Source: Bacteroidetes bacterium RIFCSPLOWO2_12_FULL_37_12
GTDB lineage: Bacteria > Bacteroidota > Bacteroidia > 2-12-FULL-37-12
Assembly (NCBI GenBank): GCA_001769655.1
Contig: MEPC01000003.1
Location: forward strand, 23,961-78,799
Direction of reading: 5' to 3'
Length of the DNA: 54,839 nucleotides
The first letter of the stretch is position 1. Every line of letters begins with the position of its first letter. A program made the translations under genes and the position numbers. Under the pieces are notes generated by a model that did no database searches, was not told the origin of the DNA, and saw only the letters and a program-made list of their open reading frames with translations. This document shows, piece by piece, positions 1 through 54,754 of this stretch.

Positions 1-86
1 CCTTATACCCTTATACCCTTATACCCTTATACCCTTATACCCTTATACCCTTATACCCTTATACCCTTATACCCTTATATCCTTAT
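1..86. repeat. 8-bp tandem repeat (CCCTTATA)n upstream of lpd
   Basis: A partial unit is followed by nine perfect copies of CCCTTATA (8-79) and a decayed copy. The array ends about 9 bp before the lpd start codon and runs off the window edge. The plus strand contains no G. A relaxed version of the same motif lies directly before meaB (35085-35126). There are no spacers, so it is not CRISPR. Confidence 0.9.
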
Positions 87-44699: not shown

Positions 44700-46823
44700 A
44701 TGAGGAAAATTCTACATTTCTTTTTTTTTATTTTAATTTTTTTAAATCGCTCTGTTTCTCAAACGATTTTCATAAACGAGATTCACTACGACAATGCCGG
44801 TGCCGATGTGGATGAGGGCATTGAGATATCAGGTCCTGCCGGTACAAATCTCGCCTGTTACCGTTTAGTTGCCTACAATGGTGGCGATAGTAAATTCTAC
44901 ATGAATCTCAATCTTAGCGGTACTATTCCTGATCAATGTGATGGATATGGCACTGTTTGGTTTTCATGGACAGGTCTTCAGAATGGTGCGCCTGATGGTG
45001 TGGCGCTATACAATACTTGCACATCTACCGTAATTCAATTTCTTAGTTATGAAGGAGTCATAACCGCCGCTGATGGTCCTGCTATCGGAATGACTTCCGT
45101 GAATATTGGAGTGGATGAAGATCCTGAACCTGCCGTTGGAAATACCTTACAACTTACAGGAACCGGTACAACCTATACCGATTTTTCATGGACCGGACCG
45201 TCGGCTAATTCCAGAGGAAGTGTAAACACAGGACAGGATTTTGGATGTGCCGCTATTACACCTGAAAAATTTGTGTTTACTTTTACTCCTCCCTATTGCA
45301 CTAATAAAAACACAAATTTTTCTACTACGGTTTGTGCCACTGATAATAGTGGAAATCTGGCATCTACTTTTATGGGAAGTGCCACTTTATCTAAAAATTC
45401 CGGTCCAGGAACATTATCTGGAACTACCTCTTTAACATTTGTTAACGGGTGTGCCACTGTTTCAAATCTTCAATTTAACCTGGCAGGTAATTACACTTTA
45501 AAAGCTTCCAATGGCACACTCACCGATGGAATTTCACCAACTATTGTAATAGCAGATTCGTGCGAAAAATGTATTGAAATCAAAAGTATTATGGTAGATG
45601 CATGTGGAGGATTGACAGAAGGATTGCAGGAAATGGTACAATTTGAAACCGGAGAAACTCCTGTGAATACTTCTGATTTGACCGTTGAATGGCCCTTTAA
45701 TTCCTATTTGGGCATTTGTCAGGATGCAAATACAGCCGCATTTGTCGCCAATACCAATGCAACAATAACCGGTGGAGGTTCTTTAGTACAACCTCCAGGT
45801 GGGATAATCCCAGCAAACGCAAAGGTTTTATTAGTTACAAGTTCTGCTCTCGTAAGTTCAGCGATGAGTTTTGTTGATTTGAATTATACATTATATGTAA
45901 TTTTTCAATGTGCCGGGAATACAAACGGACATTTTAAAAATTATTGCACTCCTGCTTGCGGTGACCGAACTCTTGTTATGAATTTTGGTTCAGGTTGTAG
46001 TGACACCGTAAAATATGAACCCAATGAATTATTAAACCAGGCAGGAAATCCGGGGGAGCAAGATGGCGCTACCGTTACATACACAAACAGTGGAGAACCC
46101 ACTTATGGGAATAACGGATGTGTTGCCCCTTTTGCACCACCGTTGGAAGCAACTATTACCTCTACCGACCCATCCTGTAATGGCGGAAGTAACGGTTCAG
46201 CAACTGCTACTCCTGTCGGTGGAACTGCGCCATATATTTATTTATGGTCAACCGGAGCCACTTCTCAAACTATCTCATCTCTCACCGCTGGTACTTATTC
46301 TGTCATTATTGAAGATGACTATTTTTTTCAGGATACTGCCTATGTAACTATTGGACAGCCGACCGTAATCACAAGTTCAGCCAGTACGGTTCAGCCAACC
46401 TGCCCTTGCGATGCAACCGGTTCACTTAATTTATCAGCGAGCGGTGGAACTCCTCCCTATACCTATTTATGGTCAAACTCAAACACCACCGAAGATTTAT
46501 CAAGCATTACTGCAGGAACATATACTGTTACAATTACGGACAGTAAGAGTTGCACAGCTTCTTTCTCGTACATTTTAGGGGAACCACCTGGAATTGCAAT
46601 CAGTTTAGTTTCACAAATAAACGTTTCATGTTTTGGAATGAATAACGGTCAATTTCAGGTTCAGGTGAACGGTGGAACAGCACCTTATGATTTTTCAATA
46701 GATGGAGGAGCATCTTACGTTTATAATAATATTGCGGCAAATACGCCTGTTTTATTCAGTTCTCTTTTATCCGGAAATTATGTGATAAAAGTAAGGGATG
46801 GGAATGGGTGTATGACGCATTAA
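44700..46823 (+). CDS. SprB-repeat surface protein, C-terminally short
   Basis: A 707-residue exported protein: signal peptide 1-20, a lamin-tail-like N-terminal domain (FINEIHYDNAGADVDEGIEI, about 22-180), a Cys-containing middle (CEKCIEIKSIMVDACGGL), then SprB-type repeats in the last 230 residues (GGTAPYIYLWSTGATSQTI, GGTPPYTYLWSNSNTTEDL, GGTAPYDFSIDGGASYVY). SprB-type adhesins normally continue with more repeats and a T9SS tail; this one stops right after the third repeat (VRDGNGCMTH). It either lost its sorting tail or is released or retained another way. The stop is followed by an A run, not by repeat remnants. Confidence 0.85.
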   Translation: MRKILHFFFFILIFLNRSVSQTIFINEIHYDNAGADVDEGIEISGPAGTNLACYRLVAYNGGDSKFYMNLNLSGTIPDQCDGYGTVWFSWTGLQNGAPDGVALYNTCTSTVIQFLSYEGVITAADGPAIGMTSVNIGVDEDPEPAVGNTLQLTGTGTTYTDFSWTGPSANSRGSVNTGQDFGCAAITPEKFVFTFTPPYCTNKNTNFSTTVCATDNSGNLASTFMGSATLSKNSGPGTLSGTTSLTFVNGCATVSNLQFNLAGNYTLKASNGTLTDGISPTIVIADSCEKCIEIKSIMVDACGGLTEGLQEMVQFETGETPVNTSDLTVEWPFNSYLGICQDANTAAFVANTNATITGGGSLVQPPGGIIPANAKVLLVTSSALVSSAMSFVDLNYTLYVIFQCAGNTNGHFKNYCTPACGDRTLVMNFGSGCSDTVKYEPNELLNQAGNPGEQDGATVTYTNSGEPTYGNNGCVAPFAPPLEATITSTDPSCNGGSNGSATATPVGGTAPYIYLWSTGATSQTISSLTAGTYSVIIEDDYFFQDTAYVTIGQPTVITSSASTVQPTCPCDATGSLNLSASGGTPPYTYLWSNSNTTEDLSSITAGTYTVTITDSKSCTASFSYILGEPPGIAISLVSQINVSCFGMNNGQFQVQVNGGTAPYDFSIDGGASYVYNNIAANTPVLFSSLLSGNYVIKVRDGNGCMTH

Positions 46824-46955: not shown

Positions 46956-46983
46956 AAATGTTGCATTTTAAAAAAATTTGTTG

Positions 46984-46991
46984 TATATTTG
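46984..46991 (+). promoter_or_regulatory. -7 box of the fibre locus
   Basis: TATATTTG, 58 bp before the ATG at 47050. It supports transcription of the out-of-frame start region. Confidence 0.55.
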
Positions 46992-47049: not shown

Positions 47050-47178
47050 ATGAAATCCATTACTAACGCTTCAATCTTCTGCTTGAAAAACTACGCAAAT
47101 TTTCAACCTTCAATTGAACACCGTAAATCCAAAATCGTAAATATTAAATCAATCGCCCCCCCCCCCGCGAAAAATTAA
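47050..47178 (+). CDS. Out-of-frame N-terminal ORF ending just after the C11 tract
   Basis: ATG 47050 opens a 42-codon frame (MKSITNASIFCLKNYANF...) that enters the poly-C run as Pro codons and stops at TAA 47176-47178. The promoter at 46984 suits this start. With one more C (or two fewer) the frame would continue without a stop into the 47361 gene, adding the signal-like segment HALFCGFSILISTILF and NSYSQ. I regard it as the true 5' end of the fibre gene in an OFF state, or the product of a miscounted homopolymer. A free 42-residue peptide is the less likely alternative. Confidence 0.5.
   Translation: MKSITNASIFCLKNYANFQPSIEHRKSKIVNIKSIAPPPAKN
47156..47166. repeat. Homopolymeric C11 tract inside the fibre gene's 5' end
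   Basis: Eleven consecutive C residues between codons of the 47050 frame. The next-longest C run in the window is far shorter. Such tracts slip during replication. Confidence 0.9.
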
Positions 47179-47190
47179 TTCCGATACTAC

Positions 47191-47216
47191 ATATAACAGC
47201 CATATATAACAGCCAT
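47191..47216. repeat. Perfect 13-bp tandem duplication
   Basis: ATATAACAGCCAT occurs twice in direct succession (47191-47203, 47204-47216). Thirteen is not a multiple of three, so gain or loss also shifts the frame. Confidence 0.9.
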
Positions 47217-47360
47217 GCTTTATTTTGTGGCTTTTCTATTCTAATATCTACCATTTTATTCCCTCTGCAAAATTCTTATTCTCAAAATGACGGTAGTAAT
47301 TGCGCCCAAAGAATCACTAAACCTCCTGCTGCTGAACTCTGCCCTAAAGATGTATATAAA

Positions 47361-49625
47361 ATGGAAAAAGCAGAGATGTGGTTTGAGTTTACAGCCAATG
47401 CACCGGAGCATGAAGTAATTGTATCGCCATCGGAAACACAACCCCAGGCAGAAATCACAAAGCTAACGCTCTTTGAAAATACATGCCCTGATTTACATTT
47501 GCGTAAAGAAGTTTCTACCCAACCGCCCGAACTTCCCCGGATGCGTATGGAACAATTAATTGTAGGTCAAAAATATATTGTGAAGGCGGAGAGGGAACAA
47601 ATTACCACAGCCGCAAATTTTGAAATGTGTATCATTCGTGATAAGGTTGGTGGGGGAGGTGACGGAGATGGTGGAGATAATGGAAATGGAGGAACTCAAA
47701 CGGGCGGGGTGGAATGTAAAGGTGACAACGCCGCTAAAAACGCATGGATGGAAAATAAAACTTATCCCGACAAACTGTTTATCTGTAATAGATACAAATT
47801 TGTAGGAATTGGTACAGATGACCCTCAGTTCAAATTAGATGTAAATGGGAATATAAGAGGGCGTTTTAAGATGATGGCAGATGGGAATATTGAAACCAAG
47901 GGAAATCTTAATGCATCGGGAAATATAAGCACAGGAGGAAGTGTCACTGCAACGGGAAATGTCACTTCGTCTGGAAGTGTCACTGCATCAGGAAATATAA
48001 GCTCTTCTGTTGACTTAGTTTCAGCAAGAGATGTAATAGCATCGCGGTTCTTTAAAAGCGGGAGTTCATTTTATTTCTCCGGTGGTTCGGATGCCAATAC
48101 AATTAATACTATTTACACAAACGGAAAATTGATGATTGCCAACGGAGCGCCTGGGGGAAGCACCTCCGGTTATTCACAAATAAGAGTAGGGATTGGAACA
48201 ATGGACCCTCAAAAAGCGCTACATATAAAAACAATACATAATACAGGTGGGGGTAGTCATTACGGAATTCGATTAGAGGATAATAACGAAACAGCCAACA
48301 AAAATTCTGTATGGGATATTGAACCGATTTCAGGAGATAAAAAACCACTTTTTTTCAAAGCGCTTGATAATGATAATGTAACCAAGAAAGTGGTATTAAC
48401 TATGACTAATGAAGGGTTTGTAGGGGTGGGGACAGTTGACCCTAAACATAAATTGGATGTAAATGGGGATTTGTGGGTAAGTGGTAAAATTATTGCCAGT
48501 GGTAATATAGGAGCAGAATTTACAGGTAATGTAGTTGCAAGTGGTTATCTGAAGAGTGGGAATTCTATAATTATAGCTGGTGGCGTAACAGGAGGGAACA
48601 ATGATAATACAATTTATTCAACAACCGGAAATTTGATATTTGGAAAAGGTATGCCGACCAATGCACCGGATTTTTCAAATGTAAGAGTGGGGGTTGGTGT
48701 TATGACGGCTCCCATTGATGCATCATTAACAATTCAAGCCATGGACATTAGCGCTGGAATTGTTACGCCTTTGAAGATTTATAATTCTTTAAATGAACCT
48801 ATATTCTCTATTGAAGAACAATTATTGCCTGCGGGAATTGGTTATGGTGTGACGCGTATTACGTTGGGTAATATCACAAATAACCGTACTGCCGAAACTA
48901 TTATAAACGGAAATCTCGAAGTTAATGGTAGCATTATGCATGTGTGCTCGAATCAGAGCTGTAGTGTAAATCTCAATAACGTATTTATTAATGACCAGAA
49001 TTTTCATATAAAATCCAATATAGGTGAAGATGTAAATATCCTGCTTGAAACAAAAAAGGGAAATATATGGACTATGTTTTCTAAGGATGATATTATTACT
49101 ACACATGAATGGGAGATGTGGGGCTTTTTACCAGTTTTAGTTGAAGTTAATACCCCTGTAAATTACTTCGGTATTCATAATAGTCAAACTGGAGAAACTC
49201 CATTCCTAATTGATCCAAGGTATAATGTTGTTAAAATTAGTGATCATTTATCCGTTTGCGGCACAATAACAACTGGAATAGTTTTTGTTAAAAACTCATG
49301 GTGCGATTATGTATTTAACGAAGATTATAATTTAATGCAGTTAGATAAAGTAAAAGAGTTTATCGTATTAAACAAACACTTACCTGAAATTCCTTCTGCC
49401 AAAGAAGTAGAAAAAGGGGGGTTAAATCTTGGTAACATGATGGAAAAAATGATGAAAAAGATAGAAGAAATATTCCTTTACCTTTTTAAACATGAAGACA
49501 GATTGAACAATGTAGAAAAGGAGTTACAAATTGTAAAAGAAGAAAATAAGGTATTAACTATCCAATTAAACGAACAAAGGCAAAAGTTGGATAGTTTAAT
49601 ATTGGAAATTTCTGAAAGAGAATAA
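47361..49625 (+). CDS. Fibre-like surface protein with C-terminal tail-fibre/chaperone-type domain
   Basis: The first in-frame ATG is 47361 (754 residues), but the frame is open back to 47148 and encodes a clear signal-like segment (LFCGFSILISTILF, then LQNSYSQ) with no ATG, GTG or TTG; see the C11 tract. Downstream are a Gly/Asp linker (about 97-112), repeats of VGIGTxDPxxKLDVNG (about 150, 275, 353), a strand-rich stretch of S/TGNI/V repeats (about 180-210), and a C-terminal unit beginning WCDYVFNEDYNL with HLPEIPSAKEV and a coiled coil (about 700-754). This is the layout of Bacteroidota tail-fibre-like trimeric surface proteins. No T9SS tail is seen. Confidence 0.78.
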   Translation: MEKAEMWFEFTANAPEHEVIVSPSETQPQAEITKLTLFENTCPDLHLRKEVSTQPPELPRMRMEQLIVGQKYIVKAEREQITTAANFEMCIIRDKVGGGGDGDGGDNGNGGTQTGGVECKGDNAAKNAWMENKTYPDKLFICNRYKFVGIGTDDPQFKLDVNGNIRGRFKMMADGNIETKGNLNASGNISTGGSVTATGNVTSSGSVTASGNISSSVDLVSARDVIASRFFKSGSSFYFSGGSDANTINTIYTNGKLMIANGAPGGSTSGYSQIRVGIGTMDPQKALHIKTIHNTGGGSHYGIRLEDNNETANKNSVWDIEPISGDKKPLFFKALDNDNVTKKVVLTMTNEGFVGVGTVDPKHKLDVNGDLWVSGKIIASGNIGAEFTGNVVASGYLKSGNSIIIAGGVTGGNNDNTIYSTTGNLIFGKGMPTNAPDFSNVRVGVGVMTAPIDASLTIQAMDISAGIVTPLKIYNSLNEPIFSIEEQLLPAGIGYGVTRITLGNITNNRTAETIINGNLEVNGSIMHVCSNQSCSVNLNNVFINDQNFHIKSNIGEDVNILLETKKGNIWTMFSKDDIITTHEWEMWGFLPVLVEVNTPVNYFGIHNSQTGETPFLIDPRYNVVKISDHLSVCGTITTGIVFVKNSWCDYVFNEDYNLMQLDKVKEFIVLNKHLPEIPSAKEVEKGGLNLGNMMEKMMKKIEEIFLYLFKHEDRLNNVEKELQIVKEENKVLTIQLNEQRQKLDSLILEISERE

Positions 49626-49693: not shown

Positions 49694-50323
49694 ATGAATA
49701 TGAATTTTATTAAAACAAAATGGATAATTCAGATATGCTTAATTATATTCGTTACTGAATTTTTCCATCCTTTAATATTTCCAAATTCAATCTTAGGACA
49801 GGAATTGAAGTTAGAGGATTATACGATTGAAGTTCCAAAAATAGAGTGCCAATGCTCTGGATTTGGGCAACCAGGTTGGTACTATAGAATAATTAAATCA
49901 GACTCCGAATATTCTGAAAATACCGGATGGTTTTTTAATTCATGGGAATGTGATCCATCTATTAAAATCAAAAATGTTTTTAATTATTATACACTTCTGG
50001 TAGTGGACTGGAGTGTTGGGGGTGGACTTTTACCCGAAAGTAATTACGACATTTTGAAAAATGAATATAATAATAATTACCTCTTTCGACTTTGGATTAA
50101 AAGAGACGCAAGCCAATACTTTGCTAAAAGTGGAATGCCTTATAGAATTTGTTGTCTGGTTCCTAAAATAAAGGATAATAATGAAATACAATTTATATCA
50201 ATGACCGAAATTATACTATCCGGCAAAGGCGATAGTACAGTTTACAATAGAATTGTTAAAATGGAAAACTTCAAACAAAATGAAATTAAATTTATTAAAC
50301 CGGATCCGAGGTGGAAACACTAA
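49694..50323 (+). CDS. Exported protein of unknown function
   Basis: A 209-residue protein with an N-terminal signal segment (IIQICLIIFVTEFFHPLIF, ending near GQ at 36). The mature part begins ELKLEDYTIEVPKIECQCSG and has a C-x-C, a CC pair and many aromatics (PGWYYRI, NTGWFFNSWECDP). It is not similar to any family I recognise. It sits 68 bp after the fibre gene and overlaps the serine protease gene by 44 bp, so it is probably co-expressed with both. Confidence 0.65.
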   Translation: MNMNFIKTKWIIQICLIIFVTEFFHPLIFPNSILGQELKLEDYTIEVPKIECQCSGFGQPGWYYRIIKSDSEYSENTGWFFNSWECDPSIKIKNVFNYYTLLVVDWSVGGGLLPESNYDILKNEYNNNYLFRLWIKRDASQYFAKSGMPYRICCLVPKIKDNNEIQFISMTEIILSGKGDSTVYNRIVKMENFKQNEIKFIKPDPRWKH

Positions 50324-52871
50324 AGAAGAAAAATTTATAATTTATAGAATTGGAATTATATTTTTCTTGTTATTAATGTACAAATCTTTTTCTTATGGGC
50401 AACAGAGTTCCGGAGGAGTGCCTGTAAGCTTGAGAATCAATGAAAATTTTGCAATTCCAACTATACAGCTACCATACATAGATAATGCTATAGAAAAGTT
50501 AAAAACGGATACTATTAAAAATAAAAATTGCGAATCATGCAAAACAGGATATTATGGAAAAGTGTTAAACAGTAGTGTTGAACTTACCAATACAGGTTAT
50601 CTTCAAACACTCAGCGATGGAGGAAAATTATGGAGAGTAAGATTTGAATCATCCTCTGCTTATGCACTTCAGTTTTATTTTGATAAATTTCATCTCCCCT
50701 TTGGTGCAACTCTATTCATTTTTAATGAGGACAGTTCCATGATTCTGGGAGCTTTTACATCAAAAAATAATCCCAGTAACCCCAATCAAGCTATTCCATT
50801 TGGAACACAACTGATAGAGGGGAAAAAAATTGTTCTGGAATATTATGAACCCTCTCATGTGGAATTTAGCGGGGAATTAAGAGTTGCAAAAGCAGTTCAT
50901 GTGTTTGTTGATTTTTTTCATAAGGAACTTACCGGGGATCTTTCCGGACCATGCAACAAAGATGTTGCTTGCGCGGAAGGCGCAATTTGGGAAAAGGAAA
51001 TCAATTCGGTAGCGGCAATTGTTTATCGGGTTCCCACAGGGGAATATGGAGACTATATGGCATTTGGGAGCGGGGCGTTAATTAATAATACGGCTCAGGA
51101 TGGGAAACCTTATTTTCTTACTGCAAATCATGTTTATAATAATAACGTAAATATTTTTGATTTTGGCACCTGGATATTTTGGTTCAATTACCAAAATAAA
51201 GTTTGCGGCACTTATGATTCACCGGAAAACAAAAGTATTTACGGGGCAACAATGTTATCTCAAGACCCAAACTCTGCTATTGTGGATGCAAATTCAGATT
51301 ATTTACTTCTCCAGTTAAATACCGATAAAGAATATTTATCCTCAATTGGAGCATGCTTTTCAGGATGGACACTTAGCACTAATCCACAGAAACCCTTTAC
51401 GGGAATTCATCATCCACAAGGTGACCCAAAAAAAATTTCAATCTCCAACCAGAATCTTATATCCAGCACCTTCAAAGACAATCTTGATGACTCTAATGGC
51501 AATTTTTGGAGAGTTCCAAAATGGGATATCGGTGTTATGGAGGATTTTTCTTCCGGTTCCCCTTTGTTTGATGGCTCTCACCGCATTGTTGGGCAATTGG
51601 CAGGCGGGAATTCTGAATGCACTTCACCAACTACAAATAATGGAGAATCCGAATTGTACGGCAAATTCTATAAATCATGGGTAAATGGTGGGTTTGCTAC
51701 TTGGCTTGATCCGGGTAATACGGGTGCTACTTCAATAGATACTTATTGCCCTACATCTACCGTTACTTCTCCCACAGGAACAGTAACAACAGGAGGGAGT
51801 GGATCCGAGCAAGATTGCAGAAATGTATGGTATAAAGTACCTTTAACAATGGGAATGATTATAAATGGAAGTAATGTAGAAACCCCATGTATTGATGGTG
51901 AAATCACACTTTATCCATATCCTACTGAGGATTGTGGTGAGGCGAATTGGGAAATTGAAGTTACGAAAGAAGAATTACCTGAAAGTACTTGTGATAATCC
52001 CAACGCTTTTAATTGTGAAGACCCACTAAACCCTTTTTTGGGTTGTATTTGTTATTTTTATTATTTTTTTATAGAAATTGTTGAAGTAAATGACACATAT
52101 CAACCATATGCTCAAACATACCATTCAAAATGGTTGCGTAATTCTGCCGCTAGTGTTAATTTAAAAAATATTTCTATTCACTCCATTGTTATTGATAACA
52201 ATGATTTATCTGAATTAGGTGTTACTTTGAAACATGGAAGTTTATACAGAATCAAACTCGCTTTTAACAAACAAGGTTGGGTGGAAACAACTAAATATTT
52301 CAGAGTCAAACCAAAAGACATTGAATTACAGGGAAATTTTGACCTGTTAGAAGATATAACGGGTACTGACATTATTTTGAGTGGAATGACTATTGTAAAT
52401 AATATTACAGTTACCGCAACCAATAGTATTTCCATCTTACCCAATACAGTCCTTAAGGCAGGGACTTATAAAATTGCAAACAACCTCTGTCTTTCTCCAA
52501 TGCGGAAAATGAAGTCAATAGTTAATGAAACAATTCCTTATAACGGTTCTTTTTATGAAGAAAATTATCAAGAAAATTCCGTATCAAATACGAGTGATGA
52601 AAACGGAAACTTGATTAATGAAAAACAAAACAATGCACTTATTTTTCCAAACCCAACTAATAGCCATTTTACAATTTTAATTAAAGGAAACAATTTATCA
52701 GGTACAGAAACAATTTTAGAGCTTTCAACTTTTATGGGTGAAAAATTTTTTAAAAGAAAAACTTTTGAAACTAGTATAGATGTGAATTTGAATGATACTA
52801 AGCCAGGTATTTATTTTCTAAAGGTCATTACGTTAAATAAAAATTTTATTTATAAGATAATAAAAAATTAA
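50280..52871 (+). CDS. T9SS-exported trypsin-like serine protease
   Basis: An 863-residue secreted protease. The signal peptide is about residues 24-40 (IGIIFFLLLMYKSFSYGQ). The chymotrypsin/lysyl-endopeptidase-like domain (about 230-480) shows the triad H284 (LTANH), D340 (NSDYLLLQL) and S427 (SSGSPLFDG). A proline/glycine linker, a Cys-rich segment and a type A T9SS sorting domain (IFPNPTNSHFTILI to KPGIYFLKV, last about 75 residues) follow. I chose the ATG 50280; the in-frame TTG at 50253 adds nine residues only. The start lies inside the upstream gene (44-bp overlap). Confidence 0.88.
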   Translation: MKLNLLNRIRGGNTKEEKFIIYRIGIIFFLLLMYKSFSYGQQSSGGVPVSLRINENFAIPTIQLPYIDNAIEKLKTDTIKNKNCESCKTGYYGKVLNSSVELTNTGYLQTLSDGGKLWRVRFESSSAYALQFYFDKFHLPFGATLFIFNEDSSMILGAFTSKNNPSNPNQAIPFGTQLIEGKKIVLEYYEPSHVEFSGELRVAKAVHVFVDFFHKELTGDLSGPCNKDVACAEGAIWEKEINSVAAIVYRVPTGEYGDYMAFGSGALINNTAQDGKPYFLTANHVYNNNVNIFDFGTWIFWFNYQNKVCGTYDSPENKSIYGATMLSQDPNSAIVDANSDYLLLQLNTDKEYLSSIGACFSGWTLSTNPQKPFTGIHHPQGDPKKISISNQNLISSTFKDNLDDSNGNFWRVPKWDIGVMEDFSSGSPLFDGSHRIVGQLAGGNSECTSPTTNNGESELYGKFYKSWVNGGFATWLDPGNTGATSIDTYCPTSTVTSPTGTVTTGGSGSEQDCRNVWYKVPLTMGMIINGSNVETPCIDGEITLYPYPTEDCGEANWEIEVTKEELPESTCDNPNAFNCEDPLNPFLGCICYFYYFFIEIVEVNDTYQPYAQTYHSKWLRNSAASVNLKNISIHSIVIDNNDLSELGVTLKHGSLYRIKLAFNKQGWVETTKYFRVKPKDIELQGNFDLLEDITGTDIILSGMTIVNNITVTATNSISILPNTVLKAGTYKIANNLCLSPMRKMKSIVNETIPYNGSFYEENYQENSVSNTSDENGNLINEKQNNALIFPNPTNSHFTILIKGNNLSGTETILELSTFMGEKFFKRKTFETSIDVNLNDTKPGIYFLKVITLNKNFIYKIIKN

Positions 52872-52917: not shown

Positions 52918-53080
52918 TCAATTCAACGTATTCACATACTCCACTACCGCTTTTACATTTTCTTCCGGCATAAATGAATAATTCGGCATAACCCCTTTGC
53001 CCTCTGAAATTATTTTCATTTTTTCCATATCGGTCAGTTTGCGCTCACTTAATTTTTTAGCGCCAACTGTTAAAATAGGA
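52918..53080 (-). pseudogene. 3' fragment of a cytochrome c gene
   Basis: On the minus strand this reads KKLSERKLTDMEKMKIISEGKG, then VMPNYSFMPEENVKAVVEYVNTLN and a stop (52920-52918). That is the C-terminal part of a class I cytochrome c, including the axial Met in GKGVMPNY. The haem motif CxxCH and everything 5' are missing; the frame runs head-to-tail into an RHS gene on the opposite strand at about 53070-53098. Confidence 0.72.
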
Positions 53081-54754
53081 TACGATAGATTCGGCAGGGC
53101 AGTAAAAACAGAAACGGAAGGGTTTAATGAATCCGTTTTTTCAGTAAAAACCTACAATGAAAAAGGACTCATTACTTCAAGCACACCCTCCTTTGGCCAA
53201 AGTGGCACTACTGTCACTACAACCTATGTATATGATGACTTTGGACGAATTAATTCTGAAACTAATTCTATTGGATACACTACTTATGATTATACACCGG
53301 GAAGCACAGAAGTGACCGTAACTAATCAACCTTCCGGACATTTTTCAAAAAAGAAAACCGATGCCGGGGGAAAACTAATTACAGCAGAAGATGACGGCGG
53401 TACAATTACCTACACCTACTTTAGCGACGGCAATGTGAAAGACATTACTAATGGTATCACTGTTGCAACATTTGAATACGACGAATACGGAAGGCAAACC
53501 AAACTAATAGATGCCAATGCCGGAACTATTGAGTATCTTTACAACGCTTTCGGCGAACTAATAAGCCAAACCGATGCAAAAGGAACTACCGCTATGGAAT
53601 ACGATGTTCTTGGAAGAATAATAACACAAACGGGACCAGATGGCGTAACCGTGTATGAATACGTTACTTCCGGAAATGGATTAAATCAGGTAAAAAAAAT
53701 TACAACCCCTGAAGGAAACATCGTATCTTACCAATACGACGAACTCGGAAGAAATACAGCAGTGACAGAAACAATTGATGGCGCTGATTATACTACAACC
53801 TATAAATATGATAAATTCAGCAATCCAATAAAAACTACATACCCCTCCGGTTTCAGCGTTGATAGAAGTTTTAATGCCAAAGGATATTTTACACAAATAA
53901 ATAATTCTGCCGATGGCAAATTTATCTGGAAAGCAGATGCTATGAACAGTTTTAGCCAATACACGGAATTTACCCTCGGTAATAATGTAAAAACCTATAA
54001 AACATTTAACGAATATGGTCTCGTCACTGATATATATGCCGGTTCCATTCAGAGTTTGAGTTTAACATGGAATCTCACCACCGGTAACTTAGACGAACGA
54101 AAATATAATTTAAGTGACCTCAAAGAATCTTTCATTTACGATGATTTGAGCCGTCTTACCCAATCTACTGTGAATGGAAAACCTTCAGTGACACTCACCT
54201 ACTCCGACAACGGCAACATCGCCACCAAAACCGGTCTTGGCTCTTATATATACAAACGCGGAGCACCCAACGCAGTAGAGACAATCACTTTGACAGACGA
54301 AATAATTAACCAGGATGAGGAGGGCACTGCTACCCATAACATTATCAGCCATAACCATCAAGATATCACCTACACGCCTTTCAATAAAACAAAAACCATT
54401 ACAGAAAATAATTATGAACTTATTATTCAATACGGCGCTGGCAATGCAAGAAAAGTAACTGAATTAAAACAAAGTGGCGTTGTTATTAAAAAAATCATTT
54501 ATTCCGGCAGTTACGAAAAAATTATAATTGGTAGTGACACTTACGAAGTTCACTATATTGCCGGAGGCGATGGGCTAACGGCTATAAATGTGAGGCATAA
54601 TAATGTAGATAAAATGTATTATGTTTATACAGATCATTTGGGTTCTATTCTCAAACTTACGGACGAAAGTGGCGCTGTCATCTACGAGCAGAACTACGAT
54701 GCCTGGGGTAGAGAAAGAAATCCGGTTGATTGGACATACGCGCCTAACATATAA
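53081..54754 (+). pseudogene. RHS/YD-repeat protein gene, truncated at both ends
   Basis: Codes for tandem YD repeats (YDRFGRAVKTETEG, YDDFGRINSETN, YDEYGRQTKLID, YDVLGRIITQT, YDELGRNTAVTE) and the RHS core end DHLGSILKLTDESGAV...NYDAWGRERN. The 5' part is lost: upstream in-frame sequence (to the ATG 52997) is the antisense of a cytochrome c fragment. At the 3' end the core breaks off after NPVDWTYAPNI at a stop that coincides with a palindromic repeat. The usual continuation (GYTGHEHL-type core end and variable tip) is missing. Toxin or adhesin activity should not be assumed. Confidence 0.82.

Follow-up and report, generated by a model that had tools for sequence, protein, structure and literature searches.

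The locus described here lies in a 54,839-nt window (the whole stretch of DNA analysed) of contig MEPC01000003.1 from Bacteroidetes bacterium RIFCSPLOWO2_12_FULL_37_12, and positions without a contig label refer to this window. At its centre is a long open frame for a predicted fibre-like secreted protein, here called the fibre gene, preceded by a promoter, a short leader frame and an 11-base C homopolymer, the C11 tract (Table 1). Three further genes place it in a neighbourhood of surface proteins.

Table 1. Features of the fibre gene locus and its neighbours, in window positions
Feature	Position	Strand	Remarks
SprB-repeat protein	44700-46823		neighbouring gene
Bacteroidota-type promoter	46961-46991	+	TTG (46961), 20 nt, then the TATATTTG -7 box (46984-46991)
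Leader frame	47050-47178	+	starts at the first ATG 3' of the promoter; 42 codons; stop at 47176-47178 as assembled
Fibre-like secreted protein (predicted), gene frame	47148-49625	+	825 codons beyond the upstream stop, of which 781 residues from SQNDG onwards
C11 homopolymer, proposed slipping switch	47156-47166	+	counterpart at the homologous place in paralogs
Secretion signal, hydrophobic core (predicted)	about 47217-47267	+	in the gene frame, 3' of the tract; position conserved in paralogs
Conserved N-terminal domain of the mature protein	47280-47660	+	predicted all-beta; 74-95% identity among six family members, 31% for the distant seventh
Variable beta-rich repeat region	47660-49290	+	GNV-SSGSVTASGNI type; phage tail-fibre profiles match weakly
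C-terminal WCDYVF...HLPEIPSAKEVE segment and coiled coil	49290-49622	+	from sequence; helices in a low-confidence model
Trypsin-like protein with type IX sorting domain	50253-52871		neighbouring gene
RHS-repeat protein	52997-54754		neighbouring gene

The C11 tract begins 106 nt 3' of the first ATG, and in the assembled sequence the leader stop falls ten bases beyond it. In the gene frame, SQNDG follows the hydrophobic signal-like segment, and the earliest ATG, GTG or TTG is at 47361, downstream of the signal. The repeat unit is not a multiple of three, the length is slip-prone and the tract sits in the 5' part of the reading frame; by frame arithmetic, a change in unit number joins or splits the start frame and the gene frame. 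The original prediction had placed the promoter box, the first ATG, the tract and the leader stop where Table 1 has them, correct to the base, and our re-reading of the large frame agrees that it is open, signal-bearing and devoid of the usual start codons ahead of 47361. Its arithmetic is also right: the two frames are offset by +2, so 12 C (or 9) joins the leader to the gene.

The protein itself stands largely alone. Modelling of the N-terminal domain (AlphaFold, single sequence) gave an all-beta sandwich of moderate confidence (pLDDT 65), for which structure comparison returned no significant fold match; the model of the full-length protein was too poor to use. A sequence search of solved structures with the fibre protein was empty, Pfam and NCBIfam gave nothing convincing for it, and PHROGs profiles yielded weak tail-fibre matches only, to the repeat-rich middle in paralogs. 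We consider "fibre-like" a fair description of the predicted protein. Its signal sequence, together with the type IX sorting domain of a distant family member, suggests that the product would be secreted or surface-exposed. A phage origin, raised by the tail-fibre-like matches, was dropped, as the gene copies are dispersed, each has its own promoter, and they carry a signal sequence.

Relatives beyond this genome are few. Apart from two weak matches, no close protein relatives were found in 60 related genomes, and none in wider genome-contig and viral-contig collections. A class-wide profile search returned only remote matches to the N-terminal domain, in large proteins. Ten of these remote loci were fetched, of which eight have no G/C run of at least 7 bases and two have a 9-base run, placement aside.

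Paralogs and their repeats

The N-terminal domain is encoded at seven places in the genome, in the fibre gene and six relatives, the most divergent of which is the C24 copy. Wherever upstream DNA is present, the layout is the same: a promoter, a first ATG 40-77 bases on, a repeat, the signal core and then the mature protein. The promoter has the form TTG-N20-TANNTTTG, with a spacer of exactly 20, in all six members with upstream sequence (fibre gene included), and in every one of these the leader frame is open as far as the repeat. All five paralogs with upstream sequence have a repeat that follows the first ATG and precedes the signal core. The distance from the -7 box to the ATG separates two groups, being 58 bases in the fibre gene and the C5 and C28 copies and 40 in the C1 and C23 copies.

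Tract lengths across the family are 7, 9, 10, 11 and 12 C, with AATAC units in one copy. Both frame states are represented: the fibre gene and the C23 copy (seven C) are out of frame, and the C1 copy (nine C) and the C24 copy (five perfect AATAC units) are in frame. The state cannot be called in the C5 copy (12 C) or the C28 copy (ten C), where 28 and 29 N, respectively, adjoin the tract, and the contig with the C37 copy starts just 3' of the place where its tract would be expected. At three of the seven loci the assembly thus has N gaps or breaks off, which fits assembly trouble at tracts of mixed length but also the ordinary trouble of assembling homopolymers. Downstream of the conserved N-terminal domain the fibre parts vary among paralogs, and in the distant C24 copy Ig-like/PKD domains and a type IX sorting domain take the place of the fibre part.

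The unit of the repeat changes, from C to AATAC, while its place is kept, which points to being a repeat, rather than to the prolines it encodes, as the conserved feature. As the tract persists despite flanks that differ between subgroups, and as the distant copy has AATAC instead, the most economical explanation would be that an element able to slip is selected for at this position. The original prediction held that relatives without a C tract here would speak against it; among the paralogs of the same genome, every one with upstream sequence has either a C tract or AATAC. Repeats at the homologous place, and the presence of both in-frame and out-of-frame copies, thus lend support to its reading of the fibre gene as a contingency gene.

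Long tracts in this genome and in other Bacteroidia

Long tracts are in excess in this genome, which comprises 3.94 Mb in 43 contigs (37% G+C in a sampled 1.25 Mb). Counted on both strands, C/G runs number 92 of 7 bases, 26 of 8, 4 of 9, 2 of 10 and 7 of at least 11. The decay from 7s to 8s predicts about 0.8 runs of at least 11, against the seven observed; in the 1.25 Mb sample, four such runs were observed where an order-3 Markov model expects 0.05. Among 396 Bacteroidia genomes, 249 have no run of at least 11, and the seven found here place this genome in roughly the top 3% of those listed.

Two loci outside the family are in keeping with switching. On the minus strand of C2 (530-574; L058), nine perfect AATAC units lie between the ATG and the signal of another secreted-protein gene, which is in frame; the contig ends 529 bases beyond. 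On the minus strand of C24 (169641-169655; L016:2142-2156), a run of 15 G lies immediately 3' of the lipobox in a GH16-type lipoprotein gene, whose start is out of register with the 648-codon gene frame. From its sequence, we regard the latter as an independent, contingency-like locus.

Elsewhere in the genome, a run of 13 G (C39:20354-20366; L020) lies within a small lipoprotein gene whose frame is open through the tract, and a neighbouring small lipoprotein gene has eight C just after its lipobox, in frame (L020:3781-3788). Twelve C immediately precede the ATG of a TPR protein gene (C23:76527-76538), and ten C lie eight bases upstream of the ATG in an alanine-dehydrogenase-like gene (C20:231671-231680); tuning at the level of translation or of the promoter is possible at these two sites. 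Some long C tracts are intergenic or beside start codons, so not all tracts are translational switches. The octanucleotide GGAATATT, present three times between the ATG and the signal of a frame of 490+ codons (C38:99083-99106), in frame, is a possible further switch. Arrays of the octanucleotides GGGTATAG/CCTTATAC are dispersed, mostly outside genes, at window positions 1-72, at C38:125640-125832 and at many more places; one of them is broken by an assembly gap.

Tracts of at least 11 from other Bacteroidia, those near locus ends being left out, fall in the leader or signal region of a long frame in 13 of 84 cases, against 9 of 199 short C/G runs from the same loci (odds ratio 3.9, p 0.003); for random positions the figure is 83 of 1263. 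The enrichment across the class is modest, and it comes from a crude test. Single loci, in genes for surface proteins, are more telling. In frame are a leader with 12 C that is followed by a signal and a WYKFTA-type domain (L171), a fibre-like protein with 11 G within its signal (L124) and a leader with 12 G before a SprB-repeat protein (L121), the last outside the automatic criteria of the enrichment count. Out of frame are a SusC-like protein with 11 G in its signal (L179) and a gene with 11 C after the lipobox (L176). Further families contribute G14, C13 and C14 cases (L189, L161, L194, L199). Paired C/G tracts at contig edges, in genomes such as G018 and G078, look like assembly artefacts.

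It is tempting to speculate that Bacteroidia in general vary their phase by slippage of repeats within the signal peptide or 5' of it, a largely unrecorded mode that is spread over many families and parallel to DNA inversion; we would give this even chances. If true, the mode would serve surface fibres, SprB-type proteins, SusC-type receptors and lipoproteins, and this genome would hold an opa-like multigene family plus further switches of the same type.

Proposed slipped-strand switching and its alternatives

We conclude from sequence that the fibre gene is very probably an SSR-controlled (slipped-strand) contingency gene and thus phase-variable. We propose a model where transcription from the promoter is followed by translation that would initiate at the first ATG and run through the leader into the C tract. 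Slippage during replication would add or remove C residues. In the fraction of cells that stays in the gene frame, the secretion signal would be made and the fibre exported, presumably for display at the surface; other cells, with the frame as in the assembled sequence, would terminate shortly after the tract and make no secreted product. The family is dispersed and comprises at least seven genes, which have a signal and N-terminal domain in common but differ in their fibre parts; with a putative repeat switch for each, a population would display shifting combinations of surface fibres. The benefit might lie in evasion of phages or predators, or in altered adhesion. Among the points against the switch is that in the ON state the leader would be unusually long, with about 70 residues ahead of the mature part. 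The original prediction also called the gene OFF, which holds for the assembled sequence and not beyond it, since the frame shown describes the assembly only.

The simplest objection is that the homopolymer was miscounted, so that a coding run of fixed length belongs to an intact gene, always on, and the assembly is one C off. Sequencing and assembly are both prone to errors at G/C homopolymers, the gaps or contig end noted above fall at the tract, and in a study of Bifidobacterium breve pili the deposited G-tract lengths were unlike the measured ones (PMC9187656). A miscount nevertheless leaves unexplained the different lengths, and even units, at one place in all paralogs, as well as the excess of long tracts. 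The C23 copy, moreover, is out of frame with a tract short enough to be less miscount-prone, and a tract of 11-12 C is still expected to slip. We therefore consider this explanation unlikely, and a miscount in C11 alone would alter the displayed state, not the mechanism.

Alternatively, translation could in truth begin 3' of the tract, from a non-standard codon or from 47361, leaving the tract untranslated or regulatory. In the C1 and C23 copies an in-frame GTG 3' of the tract could start a normal-looking signal peptide, so in those two the tract might be bypassed, and the long C tracts just upstream of start codons on C23 and C20 are in keeping with such an arrangement. The fibre gene, however, has no such start, initiation at 47361 would lose the signal, and an open leader up to the repeat in all family members argues for translation through it. 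A downstream start is thus improbable.

If RNA polymerase slipped or ribosomes shifted frame at the tract, every cell would produce a steady in-frame fraction, with no heritable switch. Long homopolymers can make RNA polymerase slip, and a leak of this kind could soften the OFF state; bacterial RNA polymerase slippage is used mostly at A/T runs (PMC1088944). Programmed slippage or frameshifting is marked by a site of fixed length and a conserved offset, but in this family tract length, unit and frame offset all differ between copies. The C1 and C24 copies, the latter with a pentanucleotide, are in frame without recoding, and AATAC units are no slippage site for RNA polymerase. We hold this explanation to be very improbable.

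The family proteins are under purifying selection, out-of-frame copies included, with dN/dS of 0.10-0.17 for all family pairs (125 codons of the mature N-terminal domain) and 0.12 for the out-of-frame fibre gene against its nearest copy, C37. Although its assembled frame is broken, that value, the 781 codons without an additional stop or frameshift, the intact promoter and the position of the sole frame break at the repeat leave hardly any probability that the fibre gene is a decaying pseudogene, in which a run of proline codons happened to suffer a frameshift.

A slipped-strand switch would have practical consequences. Gene callers give such genes a wrong start or call them broken. It also predicts that the reads of one metagenome should differ in tract length at the family loci.

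Comparison with known phase-variable systems

In Neisseria opa genes, CTCTT/CTTCT repeats are located in the part that encodes the signal peptide. The opa genes are dispersed surface adhesin genes, up to 11 in gonococci, each with its own frame-setting repeat near the 5' end (PMC3960869, PMC5953494). The fibre family is likewise dispersed, with a frame-setting repeat near the 5' end of each gene. Its proteins are not homologous to the Opa proteins, which are small beta-barrels, and neither the fibre protein nor its paralogs have an opacity/porin Pfam match; most of the repeats here have C as their unit, two genes of this genome have AATAC, and the host belongs to Bacteroidota.

A C homopolymer in the reading frame of Neisseria pilC switches a surface-fibre gene on and off (PMC5953494), much as we propose from sequence for the C homopolymer within the fibre gene. 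The proteins are unrelated, there are seven copies here versus two of pilC, and pilC is an experimentally studied gene of a pathogen. In the sortase-dependent pili bbr_0113 and bbr_1889 of B. breve, a G tract splits the Sec-signal ORF from the remainder, and deep sequencing was used to measure its slippage during replication (PMC9187656). That tract lies between signal and anchor, whereas ours is upstream of the signal, and protein and phylum are unrelated. More broadly, 5'-located homopolymers occur in many prokaryotes (PMC2831843).

Within Bacteroidota, phase variation is usually framed as DNA inversion. Parts of a 2025 review describe phase variation by inversion of Bacteroides capsules and SusC/SusD, and those parts mention Bacteroides for inversion systems only (PMC11868660). 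Surface molecules are switched there too, and in the same phylum, but by invertases and inverted promoters rather than repeat slippage. Our partial coverage of the literature turned up no paper on repeat-mediated switching in Bacteroidota, which is weak evidence of absence. Most likely, by analogy, the fibre gene switch resembles those of Neisseria opa and pilC and is of a type hardly described in Bacteroidota. A seven-gene, repeat-switched family with two unit types at one place would mean that a Neisseria-like strategy has arisen in an uncultured member of Bacteroidota too.
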